Positions 42,205 to 51,334 of a stretch of 64,000 nt of DNA are shown here, in pieces. Position numbers and translations under genes: made by a program. Location of the stretch: contig NZ_AP025504.1 of the NCBI RefSeq assembly GCF_024347575.1, positions 558,001 to 622,000 on the forward strand, read 5' to 3'. Positions within the stretch are counted from its first letter, which is position 1. Each line of letters begins with the position of its first letter. The stretch is from Vibrio pelagius. Its GTDB lineage: Bacteria > Pseudomonadota > Gammaproteobacteria > Enterobacterales > Vibrionaceae. Below the pieces are notes generated by a model, which saw nothing but the letters and a program-made list of their open reading frames with translations, did no database searches and was not told where the DNA came from.

Positions 42205-42239
42205 TTATAACCAAAGCATTAACATAAAAACTGCAGGCA

Positions 42240-42348
42240 AAAAAAAACCAACCACAATAAACGTGATTGGCTATATATTTTATGTGAACAATAAAGGTTC
42301 ACTAACAACGTCAGTTGGCTAGGTGACCCTCGGCTTAAGAAGGGTCAC
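42240..42348 (-). ncRNA. qrr: Qrr quorum-regulatory small RNA, right copy
   Basis: Second Qrr gene, on the opposite strand. The 5' stem GTGACCC/GGGTCAC with loop TTCTTAAGCCGA is fully paired, and the pairing core CTAGCCAACTGACGTTGTTA is identical to the left copy, as is the GTGAAC/GTTCAC stem. The 3' part differs: CCAATCAC/GTGGTTGG is the terminator stem, followed by nine T. It is also a Qrr2-5-type RNA with the long first stem. About 109 nt. It points toward the converging regulator gene without overlapping its coding region. Confidence 0.95.
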
Positions 42349-48484: not shown

Positions 48485-49693
48485 TTATAGCAAGATAAAG
48501 ATACCCGCTAAGCATGCGCTCATTAGGTTAGCCAATGTACCTGCTGCAACCGCTTTAAGACCAAGGTTTGCCACCTCAGCACGACGCTCAGGAGCGATAA
48601 CACCGATAGAACCTAATTGAATCGCAATAGAACCGATGTTCGCAAAGCCACACAATGCAAACGTGATGATCACTTGGCTGTGCTCTGAAAGTAACGCTTT
48701 GTTCTCGACGAAATCGATGAAAGCAACAAACTCATTCATAATGATCTTTTGACCAATGTAAGAGCCTGCCATTAGCACTTCATCACTTGGAATGCCGATA
48801 ACCCACGCCAATGGTGAGAATAGGTAACCAAATACCGCTTGTAGAGTGATACCAGTAAAGCCAACCGCTTCACCTAAGCTCTCAAGACCTGTGTTCACCA
48901 TCGCGATAACACTAACGAAAGCAATCAGCATAGTACCAACCGCAACCGCCACTTTCATACCGTTCATTGCGCCACTTGCTAACGCGTCGATCACATTACT
49001 TTGGTCAGCTTTGTCTAGTTCAATATTGTCGTAACTACTTGGTGTATCAAGTTCAGGCACAATAATTTTAGCCATTAGTAGACTACCCGGCGCGGCCATA
49101 AAGCTTGCTGCAATAAGGTACTTAAGTTCAACACCTAGACCAGCATACCCCCCTAACACGCTGCCCGCGACCGATGCCATACCACCAGCCATCACTGCGA
49201 ATAGCTCTGAACGAGTCATTGATTTTAAGAAAGGACGAATAAGAAGTGGCGACTCGCCTTGAGAAAGGAAAATATTACCAGTAGCAACCAAAGACTCTGC
49301 TTTACTCGTACCCAACAGTTTCTGAACAGCACCACCTAGAACTTGGATTACTTTCTGCATCACACCCAGATAGTAAAGTGCAGAAATCAGCGCGCTAAAG
49401 AAGATGATAATAGGAAGTACACGCACTGCGAAGATAAACCCTTCAGTAGCAAGGCCACCAAAAAGAAATGAGATACCCGCATCTGCAAAGCCAAGTAAGC
49501 TTGATACGCCGCTACTTAAACTTGTTAACGCCATTTGTCCCCAAGGAAAATATAGCACTAAAGCAGCAAAACTAATTTGAAGTAGAAAGGCACGAATTAC
49601 CGTTTTCCAGTTGATCGCCGAGCGGCTCTCAGATAGCAAATACGCGCAAGCGATTAGTGCAAAAACACCAACAAAACCAAATAAAATATTCAT
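48485..49693 (-). CDS. nupC: Concentrative nucleoside transporter, NupC family
   Basis: Imports nucleosides with a cation across the inner membrane. 402 residues with about ten hydrophobic segments. The CNT signatures SQGESPLLIRPFLKSMTRSELFAVM and AGGMASVAGSVLGGYAGLGV are intact, as are GIPSDEVLMAGSYIGQKIIMNEFVAF and FALCGFANIGSIAIQLGSIG, which line the nucleoside and sodium sites. AGGA eight bases before the ATG. A leader of about 245 bases precedes it, with a structured RNA and a 39-codon ORF. Single gene with its own terminator. Confidence 0.93.
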   Translation of the reverse strand: MNILFGFVGVFALIACAYLLSESRSAINWKTVIRAFLLQISFAALVLYFPWGQMALTSLSSGVSSLLGFADAGISFLFGGLATEGFIFAVRVLPIIIFFSALISALYYLGVMQKVIQVLGGAVQKLLGTSKAESLVATGNIFLSQGESPLLIRPFLKSMTRSELFAVMAGGMASVAGSVLGGYAGLGVELKYLIAASFMAAPGSLLMAKIIVPELDTPSSYDNIELDKADQSNVIDALASGAMNGMKVAVAVGTMLIAFVSVIAMVNTGLESLGEAVGFTGITLQAVFGYLFSPLAWVIGIPSDEVLMAGSYIGQKIIMNEFVAFIDFVENKALLSEHSQVIITFALCGFANIGSIAIQLGSIGVIAPERRAEVANLGLKAVAAGTLANLMSACLAGIFILL

Positions 49694-49712
49694 AAAATTG
49701 TCCTAGAAATCC

Positions 49713-49832
49713 TTAAAGAGTGAGCATGAGCCAAGCGAATGACATCAAAGGAAAAGGACAAAGAATCGCAAGCAATACGCTACGCGAAGAGGGTGTTAAC
49801 AACGTTAACGAATGTAACAACGAATTGTTCAT
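49713..49832 (-). CDS. Leader peptide ORF upstream of nupC
   Basis: A 39-codon frame beginning MNNSLLHSLTLLTPSSRSV and ending SFAWLMLTL, rich in Leu and Ser. AAGGTGA is seven bases before its ATG, a good ribosome binding site, and its stop lies 19 bases before the nupC start. The position between a structured RNA and the transporter gene suggests a translated regulatory leader rather than a functional protein. Leu accounts for roughly a quarter of the residues, but the codons do not show an obvious stalling run. Homologues not known to me. Confidence 0.55.
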   Translation of the reverse strand: MNNSLLHSLTLLTPSSRSVLLAILCPFPLMSFAWLMLTL

Positions 49833-49840
49833 GTAAGATC

Positions 49841-49938
49841 ACCTTATACAAGCAGTGGAACGCAGCTGGTCCGGTCCGTGGGGTCATTCACATATCCATG
49901 TGACGGCTTGTATTGGCTAAGCACCGGCTTAAAACCGG
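49841..49938 (-). ncRNA. Candidate structured 5' leader RNA of nupC (unassigned class)
   Basis: Read on the minus strand from about 49938: hairpin CCGG/CCGG around TTTTAAG, then an eight-base closing helix ATACAAGC (49914-49907) with GCTTGTAT (49853-49846). Inside are an arm CCGT/ACGG enclosing the hairpin CACAT-GGAT-ATGTG and the sequence AATGACCCC, and a second arm with GGACCGGACCAGCTGCG. Helix, two arms and a conserved-looking purine/pyrimidine core resemble a riboswitch aptamer. It matches none of the classes I can recall (purine, c-di-GMP, TPP, guanidine, preQ1, ZTP). The closing helix ends right next to the leader-ORF Shine-Dalgarno. Structure drawn by eye. Confidence 0.5.
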
Positions 49939-49944
49939 AAGAGA

Positions 49945-49976
49945 AGTATAAACAACTCAATGAGACTTTCATCACA
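49945..49976 (-). promoter_or_regulatory. nupC promoter with CRP-like site
   Basis: TGTGATGAAAGTCTCA (minus, 49976-49961) matches TGTGAN6TCACA at nine of ten fixed positions. TATACT at 49950-49945 can be the -10, giving a transcript start near 49938, just at the first hairpin. nupC genes are CRP/CytR targets in relatives. Confidence 0.55.
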
Positions 49977-50053
49977 TTTTTTAACGCAAACGATCGCGCG
50001 ATTAAAATTGCATCAATTCGTTCAAATTTGATGAGCTTTGTAAAAAAACATCG

Positions 50054-51334
50054 TTAAAAAGTTGCGCTAACCTGTACATCACGACACTTGTCAGTTGACA
50101 ATTCAAAGCAGTATTGCGCGTGTTTTTTTAAGCAGTTGAAAACTTCTGCATCGAGTTTGTGGTTTTGCACATGATCCTCCAATATCGCCAACGTTTGCTC
50201 TAAGCTCATTCCTGGGCGATAAGGACGAGATTGTGTTAACGCTTGAAATACATCAACAACCGCCACAATCCGACTTGGCCTATCAAGCTGCTCGGCCGTT
50301 TTACCCATCGGATAGCCCGAGCCGTCAAGACGCTCGTGGTGGTTGGAAGCCCACTCACAAATTTGCGGCGAACTAAATAACTCATGCAGAGCAAAGCGCG
50401 AGTCTGTCGCATGTCGCTTAATACAACAGTATTCTTCTGGAGTAAGAGGCCCCGGCTTATGTAAGATCTCTCGTGGCGTTTGCAGCTTACCGATATCGTG
50501 CACGAGTCCAGCCAGATATAGTTTTCTCTGCGTTGTATAGGAGTAACCTAACTGTTTCCCTAGGTACTCTGACAACTGCCCTACTTTCAACGAATGCTTA
50601 AACGTAAAAGAGCTCTTAGCATCGACCACGTTGGCAATGAACTCTGCGAAAGCGACCGTCTCATCTAGTGACATTTGCTGAGAAAAGAACGGGACTGGCT
50701 CAAACCTGTCGCTCATGATCTGAATGTAGGACACATCCATAGAGAACCAGAAATCATCAGTATCGACCAACTCACACATGTGCTGAACCAGGTTGGTCTC
50801 AAACAAAAGGTCTGCCTGTTCAGTTAAGCGCTCAATAATGTAAGTCTTGCCAGCAGGCGTTAGGTTACCAAAACGGTCTGCAGACGCGACACCGCATAGG
50901 TAATCGACCCGATCCGCTAGCATCACAACGGCTGCTAGCTCTTTCTCTAGTTGACTAATTGGTAAATCTTTCAGTTCATTCCACGGAGTATGGTGATATA
51001 GCACAGGTTTAGCAAAGATGGAGAGTACCGGACACTCTTTGAGTATCTGATAGCCCTTCTTACAGTGGTGATGCGTAGAGTCTGGTATAAATTCAGCGAT
51101 GAGGCTGAGCTGTTCATCTATCTGAGACACTCCACAGTCGTGGATAAGCCCAAGCGAAAAGGCAAGTTGGGCTTGCTCTTCTTCCCAACCTACACTCAGT
51201 GCACATCGATACGCGATGTACCCAACTCTTTGTCCGTGATGTTTACTCTCAAAACCGACATTATCCAAAGCCTTAGCAATACCAAATAGCGCTTTACGCA
51301 AATCTACCGTCACGTTCTGGCAGTACAAATTCAT
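50054..51334 (-). CDS. HD-GYP domain protein, c-di-GMP phosphodiesterase
   Basis: Hydrolyses c-di-GMP to pGpG or GMP. 426 residues with two HD-type halves. The N-terminal half (about 35-160) has HGQRVGYIAY and LGLIHDCGVSQ. The C-terminal HD-GYP domain (about 245-410) has HSLKVGQLSEYL, the metal pair of GLVHDIGKLQTPREILHKPG, HHERLDGSGYP (the GYP motif) and VDVFQALTQSRPYRPG. All metal ligands of the catalytic domain are present. No membrane segment. Isolated gene between the nupC unit and a divergent GNAT gene. Confidence 0.92.
   Translation of the reverse strand: MNLYCQNVTVDLRKALFGIAKALDNVGFESKHHGQRVGYIAYRCALSVGWEEEQAQLAFSLGLIHDCGVSQIDEQLSLIAEFIPDSTHHHCKKGYQILKECPVLSIFAKPVLYHHTPWNELKDLPISQLEKELAAVVMLADRVDYLCGVASADRFGNLTPAGKTYIIERLTEQADLLFETNLVQHMCELVDTDDFWFSMDVSYIQIMSDRFEPVPFFSQQMSLDETVAFAEFIANVVDAKSSFTFKHSLKVGQLSEYLGKQLGYSYTTQRKLYLAGLVHDIGKLQTPREILHKPGPLTPEEYCCIKRHATDSRFALHELFSSPQICEWASNHHERLDGSGYPMGKTAEQLDRPSRIVAVVDVFQALTQSRPYRPGMSLEQTLAILEDHVQNHKLDAEVFNCLKKHAQYCFELSTDKCRDVQVSATF

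Follow-up and report, generated by a model that had tools for sequence, protein, structure and literature searches.

The leader of nupC in Vibrio pelagius contains a conserved RNA of about 85 nt which, judging from sequence comparison, is likely to represent a new class of translational OFF riboswitch with a nucleoside-related ligand. The RNA occupies positions 49920-49837 on the minus strand of the window (the whole stretch of 64,000 nucleotides that was analysed, i.e., positions 558,001 to 622,000 of contig NZ_AP025504.1, to which all coordinates refer), its limits being given by genome comparison. It consists of a closing helix (P1), a hairpin arm (P2) with an NGGA loop and a core of the form CCC..NGGA..GGRCCNGC. 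Searches of order genomes with covariance model R2 locate this RNA in Vibrio and, within the order, in seven other families.

In the window, nupC (48485..49693, minus strand) encodes a nucleoside transporter of the CNT family (Pfam PF07662/PF01773/PF07670; NCBIfam TIGR00804 nupC), and all elements of its leader lie on the same strand. A promoter scan identified the -10 element TATACT at 49945..49950, which together with ATGAAA at a spacer of 16 gives 9 of 12 matches; three sites were found in the region against 0.8 expected. From these sequences a transcript start near 49938 is proposed. Further upstream, a 22-mer read directly in the window sequence (AAATGTGATGAAAGTCTCATTG, 49958..49979) resembles the CRP consensus and is a putative CRP site. 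Its centre lies about 30 bp before the proposed start and thus differs from the usual centring of CRP sites at -41.5. Both TATACT and a CRP-like sequence at a similar distance from it are present in most of 30 Vibrio upstream regions compared. Upstream of the CRP-like site we find GATCGTTTGCGT at 49984-49995 (minus strand), where the other compared Vibrio leaders mostly have GAACGTTTGCGT or similar; this element looks like a half-site for a regulator of the LacI family, e.g., PurR, and suggests an extra layer of purine or nucleoside control.

The transcript would begin with a CCGG hairpin (CCGGUUUUAAGCCGG, 49924..49938), seen in the window sequence and in its single-sequence fold. This hairpin varies in form and is missing from some of the Vibrio clades whose upstream regions were compared, and it is probably an accessory part. 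It is followed by the anti-Shine-Dalgarno GCC (49915..49917), which pairs with GGU at 49843-49841 in the MFE fold, and by the 5′ strand of P1 (AUACAAGC, 49906..49913), which in the fold pairs with 49853-49846. Within P1, fold and comparison define the P2 hairpin CGUCAC-AUGGAUAU-GUGAAUG (49885..49905), with GGA at 49897-49895 in its loop. The conserved core comes next (ACCCCACGGACCGGACCAGCU, 49864..49884), with a second loop GGA at 49877-49875; its columns are near-invariant in alignments A1 and A3. The 3′ strand of P1 (GCUUGUAU, 49846..49853), supported by fold and alignments, leads directly into the Shine-Dalgarno AAGGUG (49840..49845), which was read directly and is predicted to be paired with the 5′ flank. 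This Shine-Dalgarno serves a leader ORF of 39 codons (MNNSLLHSLTLLTPSSRSVLLAILCPFPLMSFAWLMLTL, 49713..49832 with the stop), and 19 bases separate the end of the ORF from the start of nupC, which has its own AGGA shortly upstream. The layout predicted by the initial annotation, i.e., CCGG hairpin, closing helix of eight bases, Shine-Dalgarno, 39-codon ORF, 19 bases and nupC, was thus recovered at its minus-strand positions.

Taken singly, the window RNA does not fold better than shuffled sequences (z -0.26, with 73 of 200 shuffles as good; in a further comparison z -0.48, with 64 of 200), and therefore the evidence for a structured RNA is comparative. BLAST with the 283-nt leader matches 117 of the 196 genomes of the genus. 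Among Vibrio records, the leader matches Vibrio sp. THAF190c with 97.7% identity over 98% of the query, while V. campbellii and V. parahaemolyticus match over a short stretch of the core. In distant genomes the core alone aligns (e.g., 51 nt at 86-94% identity) and the rest of the leader hardly does. The covariance model R1, built from 53 of the Vibrio leader loci, likewise matches 117 of the 196 genus genomes and extends to other families, with 50 of 394 order genomes matched at E ≤ 0.001. Using R2, matches were obtained in 71 of 121 family genomes and in 61 of the 394 order genomes at E ≤ 0.01; in 369 class genomes the window's own genome was the sole match. Large covariance-model searches of this kind use Infernal's stricter filters, by which weak matches are lost.

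In Vibrio the RNA goes together with nupC. A NupC match lies downstream of all 108 Vibrio loci examined (nine further genus matches, out of 117, fall outside this set), including one locus cut by a contig end (L077) and one, L076, where the match covers the C-terminal part only. Among 99 Vibrio genomes, the RNA is found in exactly the 59 whose NupC reaches 70% identity or more, and in none of the other 40, which carry more distant NupC paralogs or have no match at E ≤ 1e-100. Of the R2 matches in order genomes (E ≤ 0.01), 36 lie outside the window's family, and 35 of them were checked for the adjacent gene (G278 was left out): the gene that follows is nupC in 22 and an ORF of the CBU_0592 type in 12, and the remaining match (L234, E 0.006) stands before neither and was treated as a false positive.

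Several single loci were noted besides. Second NupC copies with 68-69% identity and without an RNA match of their own are present in three genomes (G049, G064 and G077). Two RNA-bearing copies of nupC look incomplete, namely that of L076, with the C-terminal part alone matched near the leader, and that of G058 (C41, 113347-114489), which has an in-frame TAG. Finally, a linear record of 68 kb submitted as a plasmid of V. parahaemolyticus (L252, NZ_CP141289.1) carries an RNA core with nupC, and the locus there adjoins DUF2913, DUF3541 and AlkB genes.

Compensatory changes were analysed in A1 and A4, alignments of 53 and 82 hand-chosen sequences, respectively. A1 alone (53 Vibrio sequences, RNAalifold) contains no double changes, and wider sampling was needed. 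In A4, standard pairs make up 92.9% of the P1 and P2 cells against 91.4% in shuffles; the covariation score is 0.145 against 0.117 in shuffles, a value reached by none of 500 shuffles and also above that of slid structures; and 10 cells are changed on both sides against 1.7 in shuffles (0/500). Two further measures do not exceed the controls: the number of pairs with a change on both sides is 2, reached by 96 of 500 shuffles and also by slid structures, and the number of further pair types is 10, reached by 90 of 500. Given these two measures, the incomplete pairing of P1 and the fitting of A4 to the structure, we regard the covariation as supportive and short of proof. In the nupC type most of the core is invariant, so that its inner pairs offer no variation to compare.

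Considering the helices separately, 99.8% of the P2 cells in A4 are paired. Among 98 distinct sequences, P2 keeps its pairing through swaps of A-U to U-A in eight and of C-G to A-U in one, together with many G-U/G-C changes; a non-standard third pair occurs in two. These P2 counts depend on parsing: 20 of 251 loci did not fit a strict parser and 10 of 253 a looser one, whose triplet counts include some parse artefacts. Some Vibrio clades have an extra hairpin inside the P2 loop, and in two leaders (L069 and L075, both at 656-798) about 60 nt are inserted in this loop with the core intact. P1 is paired in 87% of the A4 cells, and its outer pair changes from U-A to A-U in 6 of 78 distinct rows. 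The initial annotation had named covariation in the closing helix as a check; this helix shows the swap of its outer pair, with pairing that is incomplete. The central proposal of that annotation, an aptamer-like RNA outside the listed classes in front of a gene for nucleoside uptake, is strongly supported insofar as the RNA is conserved, covaries and is tied to nupC.

The second associated gene encodes a small membrane protein of about 86-96 aa. The assignment of the 12 order loci rests on one match to NCBIfam CBU_0592, eight tblastn matches obtained with it and three near-identical loci recognised by eye. When named genomes were scanned by pattern, 13 records emerged (five from Rheinheimera, two from Thalassotalea, single ones from Ferrimonas, Alginatibacterium and Agarivorans, and three from gammaproteobacterial MAGs, one of these labelled Psychrobiaceae), at least five of which likely repeat loci already counted and are not independent. 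A CBU_0592-type ORF was seen in 12 of them; in the remaining one, L241, the start of the ORF alone was seen, and its sequence is that of L255, recovered by the protein search for CBU_0592. One family was searched both ways: CBU_0592 is present in 15 of its 79 genomes, and the RNA in 4 of the 79 (E ≤ 0.05), in all four directly before CBU_0592. With the filters off, 6 of the 16 CBU_0592 loci of this family match the RNA model, one of them (L259) on the opposite strand, where a CBU_0592 ORF also occurs. A diverged form of the RNA is visible by eye before CBU_0592 in L258, and in the remaining nine loci no form of it could be seen by eye.

In the RNAs of the CBU_0592 type the conserved core is enclosed by a further helix, P3, with at least five pairs in 12 of 12 distinct flank pairs. 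Its stems vary (CGUCC, UGUCC, GAUCC, UCGCUC and others), each standing beside its own complement, and in L256 the stem AACCC/GGGUU was read by eye. The test of P3 has limits: swapped flanks average 4.4 pairs against 5.3 for own flanks, 30% of shuffled 3′ sides reach five pairs, and a second helix ties in one of the 12 flank pairs. An outer P3 of this kind was not seen in the nupC-type RNAs. As for the protein, nothing significant was found with CBU_0592 in Pfam, nor with its alignment among the sequences of solved structures; a protein database lists PF26604 for its relatives. A predicted three-helix model of medium confidence (mean pLDDT 73, pTM 0.50) has SemiSWEET as its top Foldseek match, a weak one (E 0.6, TM about 0.6). 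Transporters of the PnuC type are SWEET-like, and such a likeness would fit a nucleoside-type substrate for CBU_0592.

We then consider how the RNA could act on translation. The 3′ strand of P1 is followed by the Shine-Dalgarno, and the 5′ flank of P1 is complementary to that region. Over 55 flank pairs, pairing with the region behind P1 is stronger for the actual 5′ flanks than for shuffled ones (-4.4 versus -3.6 kcal/mol, 0/300). Of 98 parsed sequences, 90 have a GG within 22 nt behind P1 and eight have none; in the 90, the first such GG is predicted to be paired with the 5′ flank with a mean probability of 0.88. Own flanks and flanks swapped between species do not differ significantly, the observed mean being reached by 963 of 5000 permutations, probably because nearly all flanks carry CC and GG. 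Five Vibrio leaders (L055, L057, L060, L061 and L065) are without an adjacent Shine-Dalgarno, and in this group the ACC/GGU extension is replaced by CAG versus UCUG or similar. No terminator-like site is present at 49600-50120 of the window. Where the initial annotation left a choice between ligand-controlled translation and attenuation, the predicted pairing of the Shine-Dalgarno points to control of translation, whereas attenuation finds no terminator-like site in this region.

What the Shine-Dalgarno behind P1 serves differs within the genus. Two of the 108 leaders (L036 and L108) were not parsed, and among the other 106 it is nupC's own in 25, where nupC starts there directly. In 75 it is followed by an ORF of 33-59 codons (39 codons in 36 of them), whose stop falls between 19 nt upstream and 17 nt downstream of the point where nupC begins; five leaders have neither arrangement and one is unmapped. 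An ORF of this kind survives in 561 of 3750 shuffled gaps, and close relatives of the window account for about 30 of the 75 leaders that have one. In the window's clade (L001-L030) there are 19 distinct ORF sequences, all of 39 codons, with a pN/pS of 0.19, the other two frames giving 0.73 and 2.56; L031, L032 and L033, which are next in relatedness, were left out of this calculation, their ORFs differing in length (44, 33 and 59 codons, respectively). Hence, from its substitution pattern, the ORF of this clade looks translated and under purifying selection. A pN/pS of 0.68, 0.48 and 0.38 was obtained for three further groups, the first value belonging to the clade with a peptide beginning MSNY, where the other frames give 0.80 and 0.83. 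The peptide sequence differs between clades. The leader ORF predicted for the window is consequently borne out within its own clade, but by comparison of these leaders it does not appear to be a constant or defining part of the system. Its simplest role would be that of a spacer which couples translation.

These features can be combined in a mechanism in which the ligand, the direction of control and the coupling are inferred. A plentiful nucleoside-related metabolite (a nucleoside, nucleobase, nucleotide or nucleoside-containing cofactor) would bind the junction and the loops and stabilise P1 and its 5′ extension; the latter would pair with the Shine-Dalgarno behind P1, so that ribosomes are blocked. 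In part of the genus the blocked Shine-Dalgarno would be nupC's own and control would be direct. In the window's clade it would be that of the 39-codon leader ORF ending 19 nt before nupC, and control would proceed by translational coupling. Coupling is not strongly indicated, since the nupC start region of 20 leaders is just slightly less accessible than shuffles (0.39 versus 0.48). The ligand is taken as nucleoside-related because of NupC alone; the NupC of E. coli is reported to carry adenosine and pyrimidine nucleosides (PMC13328217). A broader and more tentative proposal, which we hold possible without favouring it, is that the switch senses a nucleoside or a nucleoside-bearing metabolite (e.g., of the NAD type) and shuts off the translation of importers, CBU_0592, with its weakly SemiSWEET-like predicted fold, being an unrecognised importer of the nucleoside type.

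Other explanations of the leader must be weighed against a riboswitch. The leader might be bound by a protein, the two loop GGAs, about 20 nt apart, being sites for a CsrA/RsmA dimer that keeps the hairpin with the Shine-Dalgarno locked, as happens in psl mRNA. We regard this as unlikely. The ANGGA loops do come close to the consensus RUACARGGAUGU found for CsrA by SELEX and to the ANGGAN hexaloop (PMC7652899), and position -2 of the first GGA holds A in 94 of the 110 cores that were parsed; however, 14 cores have C there and 2 have T, and L256 and L258, inspected by eye, keep the second GGA and have lost the first, so two ANGGA loop sites are not kept in relatives. Moreover, conservation is wider than GGA, reaching to GUGAAYGACC, GGRCCNGC and P1. 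Since CsrA is reported to bind riboswitches as well, e.g., moaA (PMC7652899), the two readings may both hold.

It is less probable still that ribosome stalling in the 39-codon ORF controls nupC, the leader acting as a leader-peptide attenuator. The strong Shine-Dalgarno of the ORF, its low pN/pS in the window's clade and in two small clades (0.48 and 0.38), and the excess of such ORFs over shuffled gaps, albeit with many close relatives among them, speak for an attenuator, but the lack of a terminator-like site (in the window alone), the 25 leaders in which nupC follows directly, so that the ORF is not in all members, and the change of peptide between clades, with a pN/pS near that of the other frames in the MSNY clade, argue against it. 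Finally, we consider it very improbable that a small RNA acting in trans targets the conserved core: the VadR sRNA has been reported to target the NupC-type gene vc2352 in V. cholerae (PMC7695739), but the stems of the leader keep their pairing by compensatory changes, which an antisense target does not need.

A riboswitch of a new class remains the reading that we prefer, and several known RNAs stand near it. Rfam 15 gives no match at gathering score for the RNA in a search of the whole window; at 49600-50080 and E ≤ 10 there are seven matches, which belong to families of snoRNA and miRNA and to one of sRNA and none of which comes near its gathering score. Elsewhere in the window lie two Qrr small RNA genes (Rfam RF00378; 34913-35020, plus strand, and 42238-42347, minus strand), about 7 kb apart, and a cspA thermoregulator leader (Rfam RF01766; 38093-38468, plus strand). 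Our literature search found no description of the RNA; it did not reach a collection of 224 candidate RNAs reportedly published in 2017, so that an earlier description is possible.

The purine riboswitch family (guanine, adenine, 2′-dG and guanine-II variants) is similar to the window RNA in being a junction RNA found upstream of genes for the transport of purines or nucleosides, and is set apart by the Rfam search, which did not detect it here at E ≤ 10. Guanine-II is, by the title of its report, a variant of the guanine class (PMC9295807). The NAD+-II riboswitch (pnuC motif) likewise precedes a gene for a nucleoside-type transporter, draws the ribosome binding site into its fold, as is predicted for the window RNA, and is proposed to be an OFF switch (PMC7749635); it is set apart by its description, from pnuC genes with a Streptococcus example (PMC7749635), and the window RNA is without any Rfam match. 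CsrA-bound leaders and riboswitches (psl, moaA) share GGA in loops (PMC7652899) and, with the pairing predicted here, a paired Shine-Dalgarno, and differ from our RNA in that the latter has lost its first loop GGA in two relatives and is conserved beyond GGA. As to the TwoAYGGAY motif, listed from human gut, gamma-Proteobacteria and Clostridiales (PMC2864571), its name describes two loops resembling the ANGGA of this RNA; the likeness rests on the name, and no Rfam match to it was found at the window RNA.

If the RNA binds a ligand, it would constitute a riboswitch class that is new and extends from Vibrio to seven other families of the order, with named members including Agarivorans, Alginatibacterium, Ferrimonas, Rheinheimera and Thalassotalea. 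It would also provide a functional hint for the CBU_0592 family. The system offers a leader ORF placed between switch and gene in some species and absent in others. With an RNA of 85 nt, two target genes and natural versions without the leader ORF, the question of the ligand is directly testable.
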